A DNA stretch of 64,000 nucleotides, taken from Bacteroidaceae bacterium (GTDB lineage: Bacteria > Bacteroidota > Bacteroidia > Bacteroidales > Bacteroidaceae). The stretch's first letter is position 1. Each line of letters opens with the position of its first letter. A program made the translations under genes and the position numbers. This document shows, piece after piece, positions 3,494 through 23,799 of the stretch. The stretch is taken from assembly GCA_017547385.1 (NCBI GenBank), contig JAFYPU010000010.1:62001-126000 (forward strand). Reading direction: 5' to 3'. A model generated the notes under the pieces. It ran no database searches. It had not been told where the DNA came from and saw only the letters and a list, made by a program, of their open reading frames with translations.

Positions 3494-6300
<2,807 letters not shown>

Positions 6301-6318: not shown

Positions 6319-7353
6319 ATGAAGGACTTAAAACAACTCATCCGTCCTAACATACAAGCGTTGCCGCCGTTCGCTGAAACCATCAAAGCACTTTCAACAC
6401 CGGCCGCACAAGTGAAGCTCGACGCCAACGAGAGTTCGCACAATGCGCCCCACAACCGATACCCCGACGCGACACAAACAGCATTGCGCAACGCTGTGGC
6501 ACAAATCACCGGCCTACGCCCCGAATGCGTCTGCATGACGGCAGGAACGGAAGAGGCGGTTGACCTTGTCTATCGCGTGTTCTGCACTCCCGGCAAGGAT
6601 AATGTGGTTTCCATCTCCCCCACCCGAAGCCTCTACAAAGCACGTGCCGACATCAACGACGTGGAATTCCGCAGCATCAAACTGGAAGAAAAATTCCACC
6701 TCAAAGCCGAAAAACTGCTGAGTGCCTGCAACCAACACACCAAAGCCATTCTGCTTTGTTCGCCCAACAACCCGACAGGCAATCTCTTGGAGGGAAAAGA
6801 AGTGGAGTGCTTGCTGGAAAATTTCGACGGCATGGTGGTCATCGATGAGTCGTTCGCCGACTTTTCAGACAGCCCCTCCGTTCGCGCCCTTCTGCCCCGG
6901 CATCACAATCTCATCGTGCTGAATTCTTTTTCACACGCTCAAGCCTGCGCCGGAAGCCGAGTAGGTTTTCTTCTGGCCATTCCTCCCGTTACGGAGTACT
7001 TTCACCGCACGCGCACACCCCATAACCTTTCTCGCGAAGCCCAAGCACAAGCCCTTGACATCATCGGCCGTCGCTATGACGTTGACAAATGGATAAAACA
7101 CTTGCGAGAAGAGAAAAGACGCGTCATGGCTGCATTTCTCCAACTCGCTTGCTGCAAAGAGGTGTTCCCATCCGAAAGCAACTTCTTCCTGGCACGATTT
7201 AATGATGCGCCGGCCGTGCATCGCTACCTGAAGAGCAAAGGCATCGCTGTCGCAGATTGTTCCACCCTTCCGCTCTGCGAGAACTGCTTGCGTATCACCA
7301 TAGGTTTGCCCAATGAGAACAGCCAACTGCTCGGTGCACTTCGACAATTCTGA
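6319..7353 (+). CDS. HisC-like aminotransferase homologue lacking the PLP lysine (probable pseudoenzyme)
   Basis: 344 aa, the same length as the true HisC at 18714 and alignable with it end to end. Shared features include LDANES, NRYPD, SPNNPTG and the C-terminal CLRITIG. Three PLP contacts differ. The Schiff-base Lys of TFSKAW (Lys207 in the other copy) is His206 here (SFSHAQ, codon 6934-6936). The PLP-stacking Tyr of TPSYGVY is Arg (SPTRSLY). The Tyr of DEAYVDFS is Phe (DESFADFS). The substrate Arg region NRHRVFG is also changed. The frame is intact and has normal codon use, so it is maintained and not a decaying copy. It is probably co-transcribed with trmD. Aminotransferase activity is not expected; a binding or regulatory role is only a guess. 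Confidence 0.85.
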   Translation: MKDLKQLIRPNIQALPPFAETIKALSTPAAQVKLDANESSHNAPHNRYPDATQTALRNAVAQITGLRPECVCMTAGTEEAVDLVYRVFCTPGKDNVVSISPTRSLYKARADINDVEFRSIKLEEKFHLKAEKLLSACNQHTKAILLCSPNNPTGNLLEGKEVECLLENFDGMVVIDESFADFSDSPSVRALLPRHHNLIVLNSFSHAQACAGSRVGFLLAIPPVTEYFHRTRTPHNLSREAQAQALDIIGRRYDVDKWIKHLREEKRRVMAAFLQLACCKEVFPSESNFFLARFNDAPAVHRYLKSKGIAVADCSTLPLCENCLRITIGLPNENSQLLGALRQF

Positions 7354-7517: not shown

Positions 7518-9923
7518 ATGGCCGAAGATATTTTAAAGAAAGAGATGCTAGATGAAGAGACCATCAACTGGGAAGAATATCTGCACCTTTTCTTGAGAAA
7601 ATGGTACTGGTTTGCAGCCTCTGTGCTGATAGCCATGTGCGTTGCGGTGTTCCACATCATGCGAACCACGCCCACTTACACACGTTCCACATCCCTGCTC
7701 ATAAAAGATGAGGAGAACTCCAAGATGAACGCAGCGGCGCAGAGTTTTCAGGACTTGGGGATTATAGGTGTCCAGAAGAACATTAACAACGAGATGCTCA
7801 TCATCTCTGCGCCCATAATGATGCACGAGGTGGCTTCGCGCTTGCAGTTGGATATTGAACTCACCACGCCCGAAAGTCTGCACGAGCATCCGCTTTACAA
7901 CGACGCACCCATCGCAGTTAAGTTTGCCAACCGCGTGCCGGAAGAAAGCTTCATGAATTTTGTTATCACATTGAAAGATAACAACAGCGTGCTTCTGTCA
8001 AACTTCAACGTCATGGGCGAAAAGCACAACAGCCGCTCCATCACTGCCAAACTGGGACAAGAAGTAAAGACTCCGGCCGGTCTTATCAAGATTGAAGCCA
8101 CTCCCATGTTTAAGGAATGGCCGGCCGGCACTGAAATCACCTTGCGCAAGTATCCTCTTTCGTCTGTCGGAAAGATGTATGCCGGCCGTCTCTCTGTCGG
8201 TCTTAGCGACAAAGATGCTACCATCATTCAGTTAACACTGACCGATGAGGTTCCACAACGCGCAGAAGATGTTTTGCTCACGCTCATCGATGTTTACAAC
8301 GAGCAGTGGGTGAAGGACAAAAACCGCATTGCCGAGAGCACATTCCAATTCATCTCCGATCGACTTGACACAATCTCTAAGGAATTGGGTAACGTCGATA
8401 TGGACATTTCCGAATTCAAGAGCCGAAATCTCATCCCCGATGTGCAAGCCGCTTCAGCCCGTTATCTTTCTGAAAGTTCGAAGATGCAGGACAATCTCCT
8501 GAATTTGAACAATCAGCTGAACATGGCGAAATACATCCGTAACTATCTGAATGACGGAAATCGCCAAAACCAATTGTTGCCGGCCAACACCGGAATTTCC
8601 AACAGCGGCATTGAAGCTCAAATTCAGAACTACAATGAGATGCTGATGCGTCGCGACGATCTCTTGGCCAACTCTTCGATGCAGAACTCGCTGGTGAAAG
8701 ATCTCACCGACCGTCTGGCTGCTCAGAAGATGGCTATCACACGTTCCATCGACAATCTTATCGTTCAACTGAGCGGCCAAATTGCCAACGTGCAATTGAA
8801 GGAGAACAGTACCACCGCACAGATTGCTTCCAACCCGCAGCACGAGCGTTTGCTCAAATCCATGAGCCGCCAACAGAACGTGAAGGAAGCACTCTACATC
8901 TTCCTGTTGCAAAAACGAGAAGAGAATGAATTGTCAAAGGCCTACACAGCCTACAACACACGCATCATTCAGCCGCCCACCGGCAGCAATGCTCCGGCTG
9001 CACCGCGTCGCAGCATGATTATGCTCATTGCGTTCGCCATCGGTCTCATTGTGCCTGCGGCTCTCATCTTCATTCGCGATGCCATCAACCACACGGTGCG
9101 CGGTCGCAGCGACTTGGAAAAATACGATACACCGCTTGTGGGCGAAATTCCTCTCTATGCTCCCGAAAACCGTCGCTTCTGGCAGAAAAAGCAGAAGAGC
9201 GTGGAGCGTGCCGTACTTGTCGAGGAGAACAACAGCAACTTGATGAACGAAAGTTTCCGCCTGCTGCGCACGAAATTGGATTACTATCTTGCAGGAAAGA
9301 ACAATGCTCGTGTCTTCATGCTGACTTCGTTCAATCCGGGTTCGGGTAAGACTTTCATCACCGCCAACCTCGCTGCAGTGATGGGACTCAATGGTAAGCG
9401 AATTTTGGCCATCGACTTCGACATCCGCAAAACCACCCTCTCCGACATGGTGGGTAAGACAAAGAATGGCGTATCGGCATTCCTCAGCGGCATGGAAGAC
9501 GACCTCGCCTCCATCATCCGCAAGGATGCTTTGGCTAAAAACGTCGATGTGTTGCCCGTAGGCATCATACCACCCAACCCCACCGAATTGCTGCATTCGG
9601 AGAAGATGCAAGAAATCTTCGACTATGCTCGCGCCAATTATGACTACGTGTTGGTGGATTGTCCGCCCATCGAATTGGTGGCTGATGCATCCATCATCAA
9701 GAAATACGTAGACGTTTGCTTCTTCGTGGTGCGTGTAGGTGTAATGGACCGCCGCCTGCTCAAGGAAGTGAACGAGCTTTACAAGGAAGAGAAATATGCC
9801 AACATGGCCATCCTGCTCAACGGAAGCACTTACTTGCGCGGCAAGTATGGAAGCTACCGCTATGGTTACGGATATGGCTACGGCTATGGATATGGTTACG
9901 GATACGGCAGAGGAAAGAAGTAA
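7518..9923 (+). CDS. Wzc-type polysaccharide co-polymerase / BY-kinase
   Basis: An 801-aa inner-membrane protein. Residues about 30-50 form the first transmembrane helix, followed by a Wzz domain and a long periplasmic coiled-coil region (about 250-470). A second helix lies near 495-515 (IMLIAFAIGLIVPAALIFI). The cytoplasmic kinase domain has Walker A NPGSGKTFIT near 610, Walker A' LAIDFDIRKT and Walker B VLVDCPP. The C-terminus is an almost pure Tyr-Gly run of eight or more YG units, the autophosphorylated tyrosine cluster. Such proteins control chain length and export of capsule or exopolysaccharide, but no glycosyltransferases, Wza or Wzx/Wzy lie within the window. It stands alone between a promoter and a terminator. 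Confidence 0.92.
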   Translation: MAEDILKKEMLDEETINWEEYLHLFLRKWYWFAASVLIAMCVAVFHIMRTTPTYTRSTSLLIKDEENSKMNAAAQSFQDLGIIGVQKNINNEMLIISAPIMMHEVASRLQLDIELTTPESLHEHPLYNDAPIAVKFANRVPEESFMNFVITLKDNNSVLLSNFNVMGEKHNSRSITAKLGQEVKTPAGLIKIEATPMFKEWPAGTEITLRKYPLSSVGKMYAGRLSVGLSDKDATIIQLTLTDEVPQRAEDVLLTLIDVYNEQWVKDKNRIAESTFQFISDRLDTISKELGNVDMDISEFKSRNLIPDVQAASARYLSESSKMQDNLLNLNNQLNMAKYIRNYLNDGNRQNQLLPANTGISNSGIEAQIQNYNEMLMRRDDLLANSSMQNSLVKDLTDRLAAQKMAITRSIDNLIVQLSGQIANVQLKENSTTAQIASNPQHERLLKSMSRQQNVKEALYIFLLQKREENELSKAYTAYNTRIIQPPTGSNAPAAPRRSMIMLIAFAIGLIVPAALIFIRDAINHTVRGRSDLEKYDTPLVGEIPLYAPENRRFWQKKQKSVERAVLVEENNSNLMNESFRLLRTKLDYYLAGKNNARVFMLTSFNPGSGKTFITANLAAVMGLNGKRILAIDFDIRKTTLSDMVGKTKNGVSAFLSGMEDDLASIIRKDALAKNVDVLPVGIIPPNPTELLHSEKMQEIFDYARANYDYVLVDCPPIELVADASIIKKYVDVCFFVVRVGVMDRRLLKEVNELYKEEKYANMAILLNGSTYLRGKYGSYRYGYGYGYGYGYGYGYGRGKK

Positions 9924-16552: not shown

Positions 16553-17404
16553 ATGTTACGTATAGCTATACAAGCCAAAGGCCGTCTCAACGAAGACTGC
16601 ATGGCACTCCTGAAAGATGCCGGCATCAACGTGGCCGCCAGTAAGCGAAAGTTGGTGGCACGCGCCAGCGATTTCCCCATCGAAGTGCTATATCTCCGCG
16701 ACGACGACATTCCGCAAGCCGTGGCCATGGGTGTGGCCGACGTCGGCATTGTGGGTCTGAACGAAGTGGCTGAGAAAAATCAAAATGTGCGCAAACTGAT
16801 GCGCCTCGGCTTCGGCGGTTGCCGCATATCGCTGGCCATCCCGCGCGATGCCCACTACGATGGTCCGGCATGGTTCTCCGGAAAACGCATTGCCACCTCC
16901 TACCCTCACATCCTTGAACGCTATTTCTCCGAACTTGGCATCAAGGCTCACATACACGAGATTGCCGGCTCCGTGGAGATTGCACCGGCTGTGGGCATGG
17001 CCGATGGAATTTTCGACATCGTTTCTTCCGGCGGCACATTGGTGCAGAACGGACTCCGCGAGGTGGAGCAGGTGTTTCACTCTGAAGCCGCACTCATCGC
17101 CCACCCGAATCTGGAAGCCGAAAAGCTCTCTGCCATTGAGAAACTCAAGTTCCGCTTCCGCTCCATCGTTGAGAGCCGCGGCATGAAATACGTCTTGATG
17201 AACCTGCCGCACAACCGCATTGACGAGGCCGTAGCGCTGATGCCCGGCATGCGCAGCCCCACCATCCTGCCCTTGGCGGCCGAAGGCTGGTGCTCGTTGC
17301 ACGTGGTGATACGCGAGGACGAGCTGTGGGAAAAAGTGGAACAACTCAAGCAACTCGGTGCCGAAGGAATTTTGGTGCTGGCATTGGAAAACATGATACG
17401 CTGA
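16553..17404 (+). CDS. hisG: ATP phosphoribosyltransferase (long form)
   Basis: The 283-aa enzyme condenses ATP and PRPP in the first step of histidine synthesis. LRIAIQAKGRL at the N-terminus, VGIVGLNE near 65 and DIVSSGGTLVQNGL near 160 (PRPP loop) are typical. The last 80 residues (YVLMNLPHNRIDEAVALMPG onward) form the ACT-like regulatory domain of the long form, so feedback by histidine and no need for HisZ are expected. ATG 16553 is preferred to an upstream TTG. The hisD start is 1 nt after the stop. Confidence 0.97.
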   Translation: MLRIAIQAKGRLNEDCMALLKDAGINVAASKRKLVARASDFPIEVLYLRDDDIPQAVAMGVADVGIVGLNEVAEKNQNVRKLMRLGFGGCRISLAIPRDAHYDGPAWFSGKRIATSYPHILERYFSELGIKAHIHEIAGSVEIAPAVGMADGIFDIVSSGGTLVQNGLREVEQVFHSEAALIAHPNLEAEKLSAIEKLKFRFRSIVESRGMKYVLMNLPHNRIDEAVALMPGMRSPTILPLAAEGWCSLHVVIREDELWEKVEQLKQLGAEGILVLALENMIR

Positions 17405-17405
17405 T

Positions 17406-18683
17406 ATGGAAATCATCCTCAACCCTACCCCCGACACCTGGGAAGCGTTGGCAGAACGCAACATCCCCGACGATGCTGCCATTGCCCAAAGCGTGGCCGA
17501 CATCGTGCGAACCGTACGCAACGAAGGCGATGCGGCACTACGTCGCTATGCGCTCCAATTTGACGGAGCACAACTCACGACCTTGGAACTTAGCGATGAG
17601 GAATTGGCCGCGGCGGCCGCAGACGTCAATCCCGAGGTGAAACAAGCCATCGCCACTGCCGCTAAAAACATTGCAGCTTTCCACATGGCACAACAACCGC
17701 GCACCGTCGATGTCTGCACGCAGCCCGGAGTGCGCTGCCTGCAACGTGCCGTGCCCATACGCCGCGTGGGGCTTTACATACCGGGCGGTCGTGCTCCGCT
17801 CTTCTCTACGGTACTGATGCTCGGTTTGCCAGCAAAAATAGCAGGATGCGAAGAAATCATCCTCTGCACCCCTCAGAACAGCGAAGGACGCATAGCCCCT
17901 GAAATCATCTACAGCGCCGGCGTGTGCGGCATTCGTCGCATTTTCCGTGTGGGCGGTGCGCAAGCCATTGCAGCCATGGCCTATGGCACGGAAAGCATTC
18001 CGCGCGTCGACAAAATCTTCGGACCGGGCAACCGATACGTTACCAAAGCCAAACAACTGGCCACCGACAGCGTGGCCATCGACATGCCGGCAGGCCCGAG
18101 TGAAGTGTTGGTGATGGCCGATGCTTCTGCACGCCCCGACTTCGTGGCTGCCGACATGCTCTCACAGGCCGAACACGGCCCCGACAGCCAAGCTATTCTT
18201 GTGTGCCAAACCACCGAATTTGCCGAACAGGTGCAAACCGAAATCGAACGGCAGGCTGCCCTTCTCACACGCGGCACATCCGTGGCTTCATCGCTCTCAC
18301 ACAGCCGCATCATCGTGCTGAATTCACGCGAAAGCATGATTGGTTTTGCCAACACCTATGCAGCCGAGCACCTCATCATCTCCATGGAGCAGCCGTGGAA
18401 TGTGGCCGACAAAATCACCGCGGCCGGAAGTATCTTTATCGGCAACTACTCGCCCGAGAGTGCCGGCGATTACGCTTCGGGCACCAACCACACACTTCCC
18501 ACAGGCAGTTGGGCACGTGCTTACAGCGGTGTGAACATCGACAGTTATGTGCGCAAAATCACCTATCAGGAGTTGACCCCCGAAGGACTTGGAGCACTTG
18601 CCTCCGCCATCACCACCATGGCCGACGCCGAGGGGCTGGACGCTCACGCCGCCGCTGTGAAAATCCGCCTCGGGCAATCCTGA
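17406..18683 (+). CDS. hisD: Histidinol dehydrogenase
   Basis: The 425-aa zinc enzyme oxidises histidinol to histidine in two NAD-dependent steps, the last of the pathway. Visible are VGLYIPGGRAPLFSTVLM, GVCGIRRIFRVGGAQAIAAMAYGT, VDKIFGPGNRYVTKAK and DMPAGPSEVLV, the metal site DMLSQAEHGPDSQA and, near the end, GTNHTLPTG. Length is normal. It is the second gene of the operon. Confidence 0.97.
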   Translation: MEIILNPTPDTWEALAERNIPDDAAIAQSVADIVRTVRNEGDAALRRYALQFDGAQLTTLELSDEELAAAAADVNPEVKQAIATAAKNIAAFHMAQQPRTVDVCTQPGVRCLQRAVPIRRVGLYIPGGRAPLFSTVLMLGLPAKIAGCEEIILCTPQNSEGRIAPEIIYSAGVCGIRRIFRVGGAQAIAAMAYGTESIPRVDKIFGPGNRYVTKAKQLATDSVAIDMPAGPSEVLVMADASARPDFVAADMLSQAEHGPDSQAILVCQTTEFAEQVQTEIERQAALLTRGTSVASSLSHSRIIVLNSRESMIGFANTYAAEHLIISMEQPWNVADKITAAGSIFIGNYSPESAGDYASGTNHTLPTGSWARAYSGVNIDSYVRKITYQELTPEGLGALASAITTMADAEGLDAHAAAVKIRLGQS

Positions 18684-18713
18684 CACCTCATCCTCAACAC
18701 TCAACTTTTCTCC

Positions 18714-19748
18714 ATGAATTCCCCCCTGCGCCACGTGCGACCCAATATCTTGGCACTCAAGCCCTACTCAACCGCTCGCGATGAGTTCGAAGGCGGAGAC
18801 ATCTCCGTGTGGCTCGACGCCAATGAAAGTCCTTACGAAAACGGTGTGAACCGTTATCCCGACCCACATCAGAAACAGCTGAAAGCACACATCAGCCGCC
18901 TGAAAGGCATTGCCGAAAATCAAATCTTCGTGGGCGGTGCCGGAAGCGACGAGGCCATCGACTTGGTGTTCCGCATCTTTTGCGAACCCGGCATCGACAA
19001 TGCCATCGCCATCACTCCGAGTTATGGCGTTTACCAAGTGGCAGCGGCCACCAACAATGTGGAATTGCGCGAAGTGCCTTTGGCCGAAGGTTATGCCCTG
19101 CCCACCGAAGCCCTCCTCGCTGCAGGCGACGCACACACCAAGCTCCTGTGGATTTGCTCTCCCAACAACCCCACGGGAAATGCCTTTGAGATTTCTCAGC
19201 TCGAAGAATTGACCGACGCATTCGGCGGCATAGTGATTGTGGATGAAGCCTATGTGGACTTCTCTCCCAAAGGTTCGATGCTTGAAGTGCTTCACCGACA
19301 TCCCAACCTCATTGTGTTGCAAACCTTCTCCAAAGCCTGGGGAATGGCCGGCCTGCGCCTCGGCATGGCTTTTGCCTCACCCGAAATTTCAGCCTTGTTC
19401 GGCAGAGTGAAATATCCCTACAATGTCAACGGTCCCACACAGGCGGAAGTGATGCGTCGCATCGAGATGGGAGCTGCAAGCTGTATTAAGGAAATTTGCG
19501 AGCAACGCCAAATGTTGGCCGAAGCCTTGCCGAATGTTTCCTGCATAGAAAAAGTTTTCCCCAGCGATGCCAACTTTTTCCTCGTCAAAGTGAACAATCC
19601 CGACAAAGTGTATGCATATCTGATGAAGCACGGCGTAATTGTTCGCAACCGCCACCGCGTTTTCGGCTGTAACGGCTGTCTGCGTCTTACCATCGGCACA
19701 CCGGAGGAAAACAAGCGTTTACTGAAACTTTTGAACGAATACAAATAA
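18714..19748 (+). CDS. hisC: Histidinol-phosphate aminotransferase
   Basis: The 344-aa fold-type I PLP enzyme converts imidazole acetol phosphate to histidinol phosphate. All PLP contacts are present: TPSYGVY, SPNNPTG, DEAYVDFS, TFSKAWGMAG with Lys207, and GLRLG. It is therefore the working enzyme, in contrast to the paralogue at 6319. It lies between hisD (30-nt gap) and hisB (11-nt gap). Confidence 0.97.
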   Translation: MNSPLRHVRPNILALKPYSTARDEFEGGDISVWLDANESPYENGVNRYPDPHQKQLKAHISRLKGIAENQIFVGGAGSDEAIDLVFRIFCEPGIDNAIAITPSYGVYQVAAATNNVELREVPLAEGYALPTEALLAAGDAHTKLLWICSPNNPTGNAFEISQLEELTDAFGGIVIVDEAYVDFSPKGSMLEVLHRHPNLIVLQTFSKAWGMAGLRLGMAFASPEISALFGRVKYPYNVNGPTQAEVMRRIEMGAASCIKEICEQRQMLAEALPNVSCIEKVFPSDANFFLVKVNNPDKVYAYLMKHGVIVRNRHRVFGCNGCLRLTIGTPEENKRLLKLLNEYK

Positions 19749-19759
19749 TTATATATCCC

Positions 19760-20878
19760 ATGCCCGCTTTCAAAAAAGCCCTCTTCATTGACCGCGACGG
19801 CACAATCATTCGCGAGCCCGCCGATGAGCAAATCGATTCTTTGGAGAAGCTCGAATTCGTGCCCGGCGTCATCTCTGCCCTCCGCTCGCTCACATCTCTC
19901 GACTATGAGTTGGTGATGGTCAGCAACCAAGACGGACTCGGCACAACCAGTTTTCCGGAACATACGTTCCATCCGGCACACAACAAAATGCTCATAACGC
20001 TCGCCGGAGAGGGCGTGGAATTCTCCGAACAGCTCATCGACCGCACCTTTCCCCACGAAAATGCACCGACACGCAAACCGGGCATCGGCATGATGGGACG
20101 CTATCTTTCGGGCGACTATGACCTGGCCTCCAGCTTCGTCATCGGCGATCGCATGACCGATTTGGAATTGGCCAAAAACCTTGGAGCGAAAGGCATACTG
20201 CTGCAAGAAAACACAGAGAACATTCCCGAAGATTTGTTGCCGAACTTATCACTTGCCACCACCGATTGGGCAAAGATTGCCGAGCACATCCGTAGCACTG
20301 AGCGTGCCGCCACAATTTCGCGCACTACAGCCGAGACCGACATTCGTCTGACGCTCGATCTCGATGGTCGCGGTGAAAATCACATTGACACGGGACTGAA
20401 ATTTCTGGACCACATGTTGTGGCAACTTCCACACCATGCCGGAATTTCGTTGAGCCTTGTGTGCAAAGGCGACCTTGAAGTGGACGAGCACCACACCATG
20501 GAAGACGTTGCCATTGTGCTGGGTGAAGCATTGCTCAAGGCATTGGGAAATAAGCGCGGCATTGAGCGATATGGCTTCGTGCTGCCCATGGACGAATGCT
20601 GTGCTTCCGTATTGATGGACCTCGGTGGTCGGATAGAATTTAAGTGGGATGTGGATTTTTCCAGAGAGTATGTGGGCGACACCCCCACCGAGATGTTTCG
20701 TCATTTCTTCCAATCCCTGAGTTCGGCCCTGCGATGCAACCTGCACATCAGTGCCACGGGCGAAAACAACCATCACTTGGCAGAAAGTGTGTTCAAAGGT
20801 TTTGCACGCGCTCTCCGCATGGCCATTCGCCGCGATGTGTTTTCCTATGATTTACCCTCAAGCAAAGGAACTTTATGA
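19760..20878 (+). CDS. hisB: Bifunctional histidinol-phosphatase / imidazoleglycerol-phosphate dehydratase
   Basis: A 372-aa fusion catalysing two pathway steps. Residues 1-165 are a HAD phosphatase (FIDRDGT with the nucleophile Asp, VSNQDGLG, KPGIGMM, VIGDRMTDLELA). Residues 180-372 are the dehydratase (LDGRGENHIDTGLKFLDHML, DEHHTMEDVAIVLGEAL, ENNHHLAESVFKGFARAL) with its manganese-binding His clusters. The cysteine zinc loop known in the enterobacterial phosphatase half is absent: the segment reads FPHENAPTRKP. The end overlaps hisH by ATGA (20875-20878). Confidence 0.95.
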   Translation: MPAFKKALFIDRDGTIIREPADEQIDSLEKLEFVPGVISALRSLTSLDYELVMVSNQDGLGTTSFPEHTFHPAHNKMLITLAGEGVEFSEQLIDRTFPHENAPTRKPGIGMMGRYLSGDYDLASSFVIGDRMTDLELAKNLGAKGILLQENTENIPEDLLPNLSLATTDWAKIAEHIRSTERAATISRTTAETDIRLTLDLDGRGENHIDTGLKFLDHMLWQLPHHAGISLSLVCKGDLEVDEHHTMEDVAIVLGEALLKALGNKRGIERYGFVLPMDECCASVLMDLGGRIEFKWDVDFSREYVGDTPTEMFRHFFQSLSSALRCNLHISATGENNHHLAESVFKGFARALRMAIRRDVFSYDLPSSKGTL

Positions 20879-21459
20879 TAGCCATTATCGACTATAAGAT
20901 GGGCAATCTCCGTTCTGTGGAGAATGCTCTGAAACGTTTGGAAGCCGAGTTCGTTGTTACGGCCGACGCTTCCGTCATTCGCAAAGCCGACCGCGTGCTG
21001 CTGCCCGGCGTGGGCAATGCTGCCGAAGCCATGCACAATTTGCGCCAAGCCGATTTGGTGCAAACCATCTGCGATCTGCGTCGACCGGTATTGGGTATCT
21101 GCGTCGGTCTGCAGGTGATGTGTCGCCACTCAGAGGAAGGCGATGCCGAATGCATGGGAATTTTCGATACCCGGGTGCGTCGTTTCCCGGCCTCTGCGGC
21201 AGAGAAAGTTCCGCACATGGGATGGAACAGCATCCACAACCTCGACTCCAAACTTTTCAACGGCATCAAGGGCGGCGAACACGTTTACTACGTTCATTCT
21301 TACTACCCGGAGCTTTGTCAAGACACCATCGCCACAACGCGCCACGGCTTGCTGTTCAGTGGAGCCTTGAAGTATGAGAACTTCTACGGCACGCAGTTTC
21401 ACCCCGAGAAGAGCGGCGACACAGGCGAACGCATTCTCAGAAATTTCCTCATGTTATGA
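20875..21459 (+). CDS. hisH: Imidazole glycerol phosphate synthase, glutamine amidotransferase subunit
   Basis: The 194-aa class I amidotransferase supplies ammonia to HisF. The catalytic Cys is in GICVGLQVM, and His and Glu are in GTQFHPEKS. LLPGVGNAAEAM is the usual N-terminal signature. The start overlaps the hisB stop and the end overlaps the hisA start, both by ATGA, so translation is probably coupled. Confidence 0.97.
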   Translation: MIAIIDYKMGNLRSVENALKRLEAEFVVTADASVIRKADRVLLPGVGNAAEAMHNLRQADLVQTICDLRRPVLGICVGLQVMCRHSEEGDAECMGIFDTRVRRFPASAAEKVPHMGWNSIHNLDSKLFNGIKGGEHVYYVHSYYPELCQDTIATTRHGLLFSGALKYENFYGTQFHPEKSGDTGERILRNFLML

Positions 21460-22184
21460 TTGAACTTATCCCAGCCATCGATATTATCGGCGGTCGCTGT
21501 GTGCGACTTTCACAAGGCGACTACGAGCGTCAAACCACCTACGACGCCGAACCTGCCGACATGGTGAAACGCTTTGCCGACTGCGGTGTAAAACGTGTGC
21601 ACGTTGTGGACCTTGACGGAGCCAAGGCAGCACAACCGGAGAACCTCCCCACACTCGAAAAAATGGCCGGCATTGACGGTGTGAACATTGAGTGGGGCGG
21701 CGGTCTGAAGACAGAAACGGCTGTACGGCAAGTTTTTGATGCCGGAGCGGCATACGCCATTGTGGGCAGTGTGGCCGCCAAGCAGCCCGACCTATTTACA
21801 ACCTGGCTCAACGCATTCGGTGCAGAGCGCATGGTGCTGGGCGCAGATGTGCGTGAGGGGAAGGTGTCGGTCAGCGGCTGGCAGGAAGATTTGAACTTCG
21901 GCATCGAAGCACTGATAGACACATTTCAACCGCACGGACTGCGTCAAGTGATTTGCACAGACATTTCACGCGACGGCATGCTGCAAGGCCCTTCGTTCGA
22001 CCTCTACACCCAACTTCAGGCAGCCTATCCCGACATTGATTTCACCGTGTCGGGCGGCATTTCTTCGATGGATGATATTCGCCGCCTCAACAGCCTGAAT
22101 TTGCGCAAGGTTATCATTGGGAAAGCCATCTATGAAGGGCGCATCAGCCTCAAGGAGATAGAAACATACATCATCACTCAATAA
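21456..22184 (+). CDS. hisA: ProFAR isomerase (HisA)
   Basis: A 242-aa TIM barrel that isomerises ProFAR to PRFAR. The N-terminus IPAIDIIGGRCVRLSQGDY holds the first catalytic Asp. VVDLDGAK, IEWGGGLKTE, CTDISRDGML (second Asp) and FTVSGGISSMDDI are the phosphate-binding and catalytic loops. It is distinguished from the related HisF at 22196 by the GGRCV start. Confidence 0.96.
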   Translation: MIELIPAIDIIGGRCVRLSQGDYERQTTYDAEPADMVKRFADCGVKRVHVVDLDGAKAAQPENLPTLEKMAGIDGVNIEWGGGLKTETAVRQVFDAGAAYAIVGSVAAKQPDLFTTWLNAFGAERMVLGADVREGKVSVSGWQEDLNFGIEALIDTFQPHGLRQVICTDISRDGMLQGPSFDLYTQLQAAYPDIDFTVSGGISSMDDIRRLNSLNLRKVIIGKAIYEGRISLKEIETYIITQ

Positions 22185-22195
22185 TTCCCCACGGT

Positions 22196-22957
22196 ATGCT
22201 CACAAAACGCATCATACCCTGCCTCGACGTGAAAGACGGTCGCACGGTGAAAGGCATCAACTTCGAAAATCTGACCGACGTGGGCGATGCCGTAAGCCTG
22301 GGGCAACACTATGCCCAAGCCGGTGCCGACGAACTGGTCTATCTCGACATCAGTGCCACTGCCGAGGGGCGAAACACATTCACACATCTGGTGGAACGCA
22401 TTGCCGACGGCATCAACATCCCCTTCACCGTGGGCGGCGGCATCAACACCATCGACGATGCGGCACGCCTGCTCGATGCCGGTGCAGACAAGATAAGCAT
22501 CAATAGTGCCGCCATACGAAATCCCGAACTCATTGACCGCATTGCCACACGCTACGGAAGTCAGTTCGTTGTAGTGGCCATCGATGCCCGCCTCAGCAAC
22601 AAGGACAACCTGTGGCATGCCACCACACACGGCGGCCGGCAGGAAACAGATCGCGAACTCTTTTCGTGGGCACTCGAAGCGCAGGAACGCGGTGCCGGAG
22701 AGATTTTGTTTACTTCTATGAACCACGACGGAACCCGTGCCGGCTATCCCTGCGAAACCTTTGCCCGTTTGGCCGAACGGCTGCACATTCCCATCATCGC
22801 CAGTGGCGGTGCGGGGTCGGCCGAACACATTGCAGAAGTGCTTACTCAGGGAAAAGCCGACGCAGCCTTGGCTGCCAGCATTTTCCACTACGGCGAAATC
22901 ACCATCAGCGACCTGAAGCAATATCTCCACGACCAAGGCATCGCCATGCGCCTGTGA
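22196..22957 (+). CDS. hisF: Imidazole glycerol phosphate synthase, cyclase subunit
   Basis: The 253-aa TIM barrel forms imidazole glycerol phosphate and AICAR from PRFAR and ammonia. RIIPCLDVKDGRTVKGINF, LVYLDISATAEGR, FTVGGGINTIDDA, FTSMNHDGTRAGY (catalytic Asp) and ASGGAGSAEHIAEVL are diagnostic. A 242-nt gap holding a palindromic element separates it from hisIE, whereas all other his gaps are 30 nt or less. Confidence 0.97.
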   Translation: MLTKRIIPCLDVKDGRTVKGINFENLTDVGDAVSLGQHYAQAGADELVYLDISATAEGRNTFTHLVERIADGINIPFTVGGGINTIDDAARLLDAGADKISINSAAIRNPELIDRIATRYGSQFVVVAIDARLSNKDNLWHATTHGGRQETDRELFSWALEAQERGAGEILFTSMNHDGTRAGYPCETFARLAERLHIPIIASGGAGSAEHIAEVLTQGKADAALAASIFHYGEITISDLKQYLHDQGIAMRL

Positions 22958-22991
22958 GCTACACATATTCAGTGGCACAGCCCCAACTTTC

Positions 22992-23139
22992 ATACCCCTC
23001 TGCCCTAAAGGGCATCTCCCCTACCTTAGGGGAGAAGTAGCCTGCGGATGACCACACAACAGGGAACAGCGTCCGGGCAACCCGAATGGCAACTGCTCCC
23101 CTGAGGCAGGGGAGCTGGCGCGAAGCGACTGAGGGGTAT
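22992..23139. mobile_element. MITE-like palindromic element inside the his operon
   Basis: A 148-bp element bounded by ATACCCCTC (22992-23000) and its inverse GAGGGGTAT (23131-23139). It contains the palindromes CTCCCCTACCTTAGGGGAG (23016-23034) and CTCCCCTGAGGCAGGGGAG (23096-23114), plus TGCCCTAAAGGGCA near the left end. There is no coding frame and no clear target duplication. It looks like a non-autonomous insertion or a mobile hairpin repeat. Read-through to hisIE must pass three hairpins. Confidence 0.65.
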
Positions 23140-23199
23140 AAGCCATCCACCAAAAAAAATCAACCACCCATCAGAAAATTTCTTTATCAAGAAACGAAA

Positions 23200-23799
23200 A
23201 TGCAATTCTCCGACTTCAATCTCTCGAAATGCGCCGACGGTTTGTTGCCCGTCATCGTGCAAGACGCCACCACCCTTCGCGTGCTGATGTTGGGCTATAT
23301 GAACAAAGAAGCCTACGACAAGACCGTGGCCGAAGGGCGTATCACATTCTATAGCCGCACACGCCAATGTTTGTGGACCAAAGGCGAAACGTCCGGGCAC
23401 TATCTGAACGTGGTGAGCATGCACGCCGATTGCGATGCAGACACCTTGCTCATCAAGGCACACCCCATCGGCCCCACCTGCCACAGGGGCACAACGGCTT
23501 GTTTCGACACTCCCGAGAGCGAAGGCTTTGCCCGCCGACTTTCGGCTGTGGTCAGCCAACGCCACGCAGAGATGCCCGAAGGTTCGTACACCACACGGCT
23601 GTTTATCAAAGGGGTGAAAGCCATTGCCCAGAAGGTGGGCGAAGAAGCCGTTGAAGCCACCGTCGAAGCCGTGGACGGCAACCGTCGCCGCTTCACCTAC
23701 GAAGCCTGCGACTTGCTATACCACCTACTCGTTTTGTGTGAGCAGATGGGTGTCAGTCTGAGCGATTTGGAAGAAGAGCTGGCACGTCGCCACCGATAA
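23200..23799 (+). CDS. hisIE: Bifunctional phosphoribosyl-AMP cyclohydrolase / phosphoribosyl-ATP pyrophosphatase
   Basis: A 199-aa fusion for steps two and three of histidine synthesis. HisI: LPVIVQDATTLRVLMLGYMN, TFYSRTRQCLWTKGETSGH and the zinc/magnesium site HADCDADTLL, then CHRGTTACF. HisE (from about 112): RLFIKGVKAIAQKVGEEAVE with the EExxE-type metal residues, and YEACDLLYHLLVL. ATG 23200 is chosen because the upstream frame only covers the palindromic element. It closes the operon and completes the set of histidine enzymes. Confidence 0.96.
   Translation: MQFSDFNLSKCADGLLPVIVQDATTLRVLMLGYMNKEAYDKTVAEGRITFYSRTRQCLWTKGETSGHYLNVVSMHADCDADTLLIKAHPIGPTCHRGTTACFDTPESEGFARRLSAVVSQRHAEMPEGSYTTRLFIKGVKAIAQKVGEEAVEATVEAVDGNRRRFTYEACDLLYHLLVLCEQMGVSLSDLEEELARRHR

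Follow-up and report, generated by a model that had tools for sequence, protein, structure and literature searches.

A HisC relic without the PLP lysine behind trmD, and a possible second role for HisC in the Prevotella group

The stretch of DNA analysed here (the window) comprises 64,000 nucleotides of a Bacteroidaceae bacterium and carries two genes of the HisC type. The first, P0001, is an uninterrupted frame of 344 codons that begins 18 nt 3′ of the trmD stop; the second, P0002, is part of a complete histidine operon. The features referred to below are:

5623..6300, + strand: trmD (TrmD by NCBIfam), 18 nt upstream of P0001
6319..7353, + strand: P0001, relic HisC, a lysine-less pseudo-aminotransferase of 344 aa (BLASTP, profile score, AF2 model and residue table)
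6625..6627, + strand: codon of Arg103, which replaces the PLP-stacking Tyr (alignment to P0002)
6934..6936, + strand: CAC codon of His206, which replaces the PLP lysine (alignment to P0002)
16553..23799, + strand: complete type A operon hisG-hisD-hisC-hisB-hisH-hisA-hisF-hisIE, probably horizontally acquired (loci, trees and domain scans)
18714..19748, + strand: P0002, working type A HisC (above the TIGR01141 cut-off)

The initial annotation had described P0001 as a full-length, HisC-like protein with a clean reading frame that has lost the PLP lysine. Both points were borne out, as the frame is open throughout 6319–7353 and His206 aligns to Lys207 of P0002 (residue numbers are those of P0002 unless P0001 numbers are given). 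The two proteins share 39% identity over 340 columns by BLASTP. Against the equivalog model TIGR01141, P0001 scored 259.5 bits, short of the curated cut-off of 276.55 that P0002 passes with 319.2. An AF2 model of P0001, computed from an alignment of 27 canonical HisCs, reached a pLDDT of 87.4 and a pTM of 0.88, with residues 20–50 poorly modelled, and the top PDB structure found by Foldseek was E. coli HisC (1fg3; TM 0.83, E 1.2e-31). As modelled, P0001 has the HisC fold, and its best models and structures are HisC rather than sugar aminotransferases or dehydratases.

The same alignment pairs Arg103 with Tyr104, in agreement with the earlier reading that the PLP-stacking Tyr has become Arg, and Phe179 with Tyr180. 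Length, fold motifs and SPNNPTG are kept, also as first described, and so are RYPD and Asp176 (Asp177 of P0002). It had further been stated that the phosphate-side Tyr is Phe. A Tyr-to-Phe change is real (Phe179), but its site is the DEAY tyrosine (Tyr180), which we take from HisC structures to touch O3′ of PLP; the phosphate-side tyrosine is presumably Tyr48 of RYPD, and that residue is kept. The sister species G017 has Tyr at the DEAY position, so this change is not common to the two. P0001 additionally lacks Tyr18 (now Phe), Arg22, Arg311 (Ala) and Arg313 (Cys); for Tyr18, Arg311, Arg313 and the stacking Tyr104 we assume PLP-stacking or histidinol-phosphate roles, again from HisC structures. 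Asn151, Asp176, Ser205, Arg214, Tyr48 and Arg325 are retained in P0001.

Two kinds of his operon occur in the genus. Type A is a complete hisG-D-C-B-H-A-F operon, followed in the window by hisIE. Type B consists, in this order, of a TPR-like gene, hisG, hisD, hisC, hisB and a gene for a DUF6359 lipoprotein; its TPR-like gene was matched at 25–32% identity in G015, G021 and G037, and hisB adjoins the lipoprotein gene in these three genomes and in G005, G030 and G043. Type A HisC clusters with the HisCs of G138, G259, G086 and G108, from the family genera g20, g21 and g30 (SH-aLRT 95). TrmD rejects a clade of the type A carriers with G138, G086 and G108 (p-AU 5e-5), and the HisC data weakly reject a single clade of type A and the genus's own type B (p-AU 0.033). 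Given these groupings and AU tests, from rapid tree searches in which branches are long and forks weakly supported, P0002 most likely arrived by horizontal transfer, P0001 being the native line. Identity of P0001 to ten type B HisCs of the genus is 38–51% (at least 43% for nine of them), and to the type A HisCs compared it is 38–41%. P0001 had been called a paralogue, but descent as a duplicate of P0002 is unlikely: the identities lie nearer to type B, the trees place P0001 outside type A, and the operon of P0002 looks horizontally acquired. Elsewhere in the sample, the hisC of a type B operon (L052 of G034, 8614–9596) lies in two pieces in different frames, through mutation or assembly error, and G104, G156 and G374 (genera g23 and g24) each have two matches to hisG, hisD and hisC, probably representing two his operons.

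Divergent HisCs like P0001, called relics here, occur in 19 of the 58 genomes of the genus, and a search of all 19 sites found no internal stop. G054 and G040 have the relic hisC between the TPR-like gene and the lipoprotein gene, hisG and hisD being missing before it and hisB after it. The DUF6359 lipoprotein gene directly follows the relic in 10 of the 19 (G009, G019, G022, G025, G027, G040, G041, G042, G054 and G055), an order explained by the arrangement of the old his operon; in the other nine it lies elsewhere or was not found. On contig C4 of the window genome (L121) and in G017 (L240), the TPR-like gene adjoins the lipoprotein gene without a hisC between them. Related lineages have thus lost the his genes next to hisC but retain hisC itself as an open frame.

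The position behind trmD had been offered as a clue to function. Linkage to trmD is confined to 2 of the 19 relic genomes, those of the window and of G017, and a functional link was therefore rejected; the gene that recurs behind relics is that of the lipoprotein. The suggested check of whether orthologues share His206 and the trmD linkage came out positive for G017, but trmD is linked in no other relic genome and His is found in only 4 of the 29 relics now assembled (see below). A functional link between the relic and the DUF6359 protein may exist, but the old operon accounts for their gene order and, judged by eye, the DUF6359 protein looks like a lipoprotein whereas the relic has no signal peptide. 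The word DUF6359 was not found in the open PubMed Central literature. Nine of 12 DUF6359 lipoproteins 3′ of hisB or of relic hisC end in Gly-Arg (the loci include L040, L041, L050 and L121); the exceptions are L054, which continues beyond GR, and L039 and L052, which end otherwise. In L070 (G030, 6366–7334), tandem DUF6359-like stretches lie behind hisB in a single open frame of 347 aa, and a 749-aa gene resembling, by eye, an inorganic phosphate transporter precedes the relic in L046, L047 and L048 (G048, G046 and G049).

The presence of two HisCs in the window raises the reading that the relic pairs with an active HisC as a regulatory heterodimer and lends it a residue of the second subunit. 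In serine palmitoyltransferase, the inactive LCB1 subunit does likewise for LCB2. P0001 has an intact RYPD, which we take to contribute to the active site of the partner subunit in HisC, and P0002 provides the window genome with an active-type HisC. A second HisC was found in only 7 of the 19 Prevotella relic genomes, and four further relic genomes searched for one all lacked it. As a general account, pairing is the least probable of those considered here; for the seven genomes with a second HisC it is possible.

Ten more relics were found outside the genus: G186, G111, G145, G238, G329, G336, G383, L131 (Hallella colorans DSM 100333), L152 (Prevotella sp. S7-1-8) and L138 (Prevotella sp. SUG404). 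Aligned rows were sorted as relic or canonical by 13 active-site residues and his-operon context, so the invariance of these residues in all 62 canonical rows (48 type B or family, 14 type A) is partly by construction; all 62 have Lys at the PLP position. Among the genus loci compared, HisCs within his operons are canonical and stand-alone HisCs degenerate (the HisC of G034, in two pieces, went unscored). The hisC of G034 was left out as short, the fragments of G226 and G249 were left out of trees and counts, and five pieces of less than 280 aa (from G413, G152, G318 and two from G279) were left out as well; the relic set read covers the ten HisC-only genomes of g6 except G251, G299 and G411.

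Across the 29 relics, the residues least often kept are Arg313 (1), Arg22 (2), Tyr18 (4), Tyr104 (5), Asn152 (8), Arg311 (8) and Lys207 (11), the counts for Tyr18 and Arg22 being lower bounds because gaps were scored as losses and six relic rows are gapped at one of these sites, some through the chosen start codon. Arg215 is kept in 21, Tyr48 in 22, Tyr180 and Arg324 in 24 each, Ser206 in 25 and Asp177 in 27. On average, the seven catalytic and substrate-binding residues Tyr18, Arg22, Tyr104, Asn152, Lys207, Arg311 and Arg313 survive in 5.6 of 29 relics; the mean for all 66 columns invariant in canonical rows is 20.0, and none of 20,000 random column sets was as low, the set of seven having been picked after relic column conservation had been inspected. 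Losses in the relics are thus targeted at catalytic and substrate-binding residues, with the fold core kept. The five PLP-anchor residues (mean 23.8 of 29) were not kept better than the other invariant columns (P 0.14), which gives no indication of a bound cofactor. Takeover by another lysine, which the initial annotation had raised, was looked for in the columns that at least 14 of 20 relics conserve, and no relic-specific lysine to substitute for Lys207 was found there.

In the 18 lysine-less relics, Lys207 is replaced by His or Arg (four each), Gln (three), Ser or Asn (two each), and Ala, Tyr or Gly (one each). The His lineages invite comparison with the nucleotide-sugar 3-dehydratases ColD and E1: His206 might act as acid/base with bound PMP in a lysine-free chemistry. 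PMC8987622 describes a catalytic Lys-to-His substitution in PMP-dependent 3-dehydratases. The His of P0001 stands precisely at the lysine position, the six residues listed above as retained in P0001 are in keeping with this, and a Wzc-like polysaccharide gene adjoins at 7518. However, the stacking Tyr is Arg in P0001, its best scores are to HisC models and structures and not to sugar aminotransferases, His occurs in so few relics, the others having a range of residues, and of the relic loci searched, only those of the two sister species have the Wzc-like gene as a neighbour. By analogy such a chemistry is possible in the four His relics only; as an explanation of the relics in general it is very improbable.

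The 11 relics that keep Lys207 bear on a different account, in which HisC became a substrate-switched aminotransferase after loss of the pathway, the phosphate-binding residues going first and the lysine-less members being late failures or having taken up other chemistry. Aromatic amino acids, on which some bacterial HisCs act, would be candidate substrates. Hallella colorans and S7-1-8 fit this order, as both keep Lys, the stacking Tyr, Asp177, Tyr180, Ser206, Arg215 and Tyr48 and have lost Tyr18, Arg22, Arg311 and Arg313, with Asn152 changed to Asp; Arg324, presumably the carboxylate-binding Arg, is kept in 24 of the 29. Several of the 11 could, from their residues, still be enzymes, and for these 11 a substrate switch is possible. 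For the whole set it is unlikely, since 18 relics lack the lysine, three pairs of such relics are under purifying selection (below), and G329 shows the reverse order, with the lysine lost (Asn) and 11 of the 13 sites kept.

Selection was estimated as Nei-Gojobori dN/dS with an in-house script and 95% bootstrap ranges, for the three pairs that comprise every lysine-less relic pair open to such testing. The window genome and its sister species (G000/G017, His) gave 0.118 (0.077–0.169), G042/G055 (Gln at the lysine position) 0.184 (0.12–0.275) and G046/G049 (Arg) 0.104 (0.064–0.164). The active-type HisC of G000/G017 gave 0.128 (0.082–0.185), close to the relic value; comparison genes gave 0.013 (trmD), 0.073 (hisG), 0.078 (hisD) and 0.096 (hisB). 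Values for G329 and G336 are withheld because dS was saturated against most canonical relatives. As both members of each pair lack the lysine, constraint outlived catalysis. The description of P0001 as a retained, probable pseudoenzyme is therefore supported: His206 is not private to one strain with a high dN/dS but shared with G017, and P0001 combines lost catalytic residues with purifying selection, as a pseudoenzyme would.

Retention was also examined across the family. HisC was searched for at E 1e-30 or better, and hisD and hisG at E 1e-10, in a sample of 399 genomes of the family, of which 341, 325 and 324, respectively, have a match; the test covers these three genes, the lists were compared by eye and the totals agree. 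HisC occurs without hisD in 18 of the 399, two of which (G152 and G318) are contig-edge fragments. The remaining 16 also lack hisG; ten belong to g6, each 99% complete, and six to g1. Conversely, hisD occurs without HisC in G139 and G305, both of which have hisG; hisG occurs without hisD in G318 only, and hisD without hisG in G095 and G159, both of which have HisC. As the sole survivor of the three, hisC was thus found in 16 genomes and hisD or hisG in none, the number of independent events being below 16 because the HisC-only genomes are related to one another.

These data also bear on slow decay, in which hisC would be the operon's final remnant, with every copy drifting towards loss. Losses do cluster in catalytic sites, and of the 13 sites between 11 and 13 are lost in G025, G029, G040 and G054, so some relics may be dying. 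Moreover, of the 33 Prevotella genomes that lack a hisD match, 21 (6 of them at least 90% complete) also lack any HisC hit, from which any second role would be dispensable. Yet the genus relics lack internal stops, dN/dS is 0.10–0.18 in three pairs that had already lost the lysine, and hisG or hisD is never the sole remnant in the 399 genomes. Decay is hard to hold for the three lysine-less pairs, and is improbable for the relics overall.

Stand-alone hisC has also arisen outside the genus. Genus g6 is probably Hallella/Segatella-like, judging from the placement of its HisCs in the tree. In the Hallella/Segatella-like group, an MltF-like gene (SLT domain) lies divergently upstream of hisG; it was present in 59 of 80 fetched loci, within 600 nt of hisG in 54 (among them L200 of Hallella seregens), partial in two, and before a stand-alone hisC in three. 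Directly before a stand-alone hisC it is seen in L131 (Hallella colorans), L152, L138 and G186; none of these four genomes has hisD, which is present in Hallella seregens. In L131, L152 and G186 the next downstream ORF, as called mechanically, is on the opposite strand, and hisC is therefore not kept there to drive a downstream gene. In a quick tree of 84 rows, which excludes four eroded relics and has nine canonical rows thinned out, the relic label changes at least four times and the lysine/non-lysine label at least seven times. Nine of the ten non-genus relics sit among canonical members of the group they belong to (SH-aLRT 99) and apart from the relics of Prevotella. The placement of G186 and of several Prevotella relics, which form long branches, is unsure.

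That hisC was repeatedly kept alone, and then lost catalytic residues, suggests a second job that does not need catalysis. The initial annotation had left the choice between a non-catalytic role and a very different chemistry; the first is the best reading, and the second is a poor fit, since different lineages carry different residues (H, R, Q, S, N, A, Y or G) in place of the lysine. We propose that HisC of this group has a second role, cytosolic and non-catalytic, in which a folded dimer most likely binds either another protein or a small ligand. Selection on that role would preserve hisC after histidine synthesis is lost, and the active site would then drift, often with the histidinol-phosphate and stacking residues going first and, in most relics, the PLP lysine as well. 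The lineage of the window would have lost its original his operon, leaving P0001 as the remnant of the native Prevotella HisC, relocated behind trmD, with the foreign complete operon now supplying histidine synthesis. From the sequence comparisons, we put the probability that relics are kept for a second, non-catalytic HisC role after pathway loss at about 0.55. A broader statement, that HisC in the Prevotella group is a moonlighting protein whose non-enzymatic role matters so much that its gene repeatedly survived deletion of hisG, hisD and hisB, with the pseudoenzyme arising at least four times and with eight different lysine replacements, is more tentative and falls a little short of even odds.

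Searches of open PubMed Central papers listed none whose title or abstract describes a retained or lysine-less HisC in Bacteroidota. That a well-known biosynthetic enzyme should repeatedly turn, in place, into a pseudoenzyme, its gene retained each time as the active site is erased, would amount to a natural experiment; it points to an unsuspected and testable second role that HisC would have in bacteria common in the gut and rumen. For pathway reconstructions, a HisC match alone should not count as histidine prototrophy.

Among known systems, P0001 is closest to HisC itself (TIGR01141; E. coli, 1fg3), from which it has its length, fold (TM 0.83), core motifs and, probably, its descent, through the group's own HisC. 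It differs in lacking the PLP lysine, the stacking Tyr and the substrate-phosphate residues, in its sub-cut-off score and in its position outside a his operon. With the 3-dehydratases ColD and E1 it shares the aminotransferase fold and a His replacing the PLP lysine, but the lysine position varies among related relics, P0001 scores best to HisC and its stacking Tyr is Arg. LCB1/SPTLC1, a pseudoenzyme subunit of a PLP enzyme, is likewise a retained fold-type I protein without the lysine; in contrast, 12 of the 19 Prevotella relic genomes have no active HisC partner, and the relics would have come from operon loss rather than duplication.
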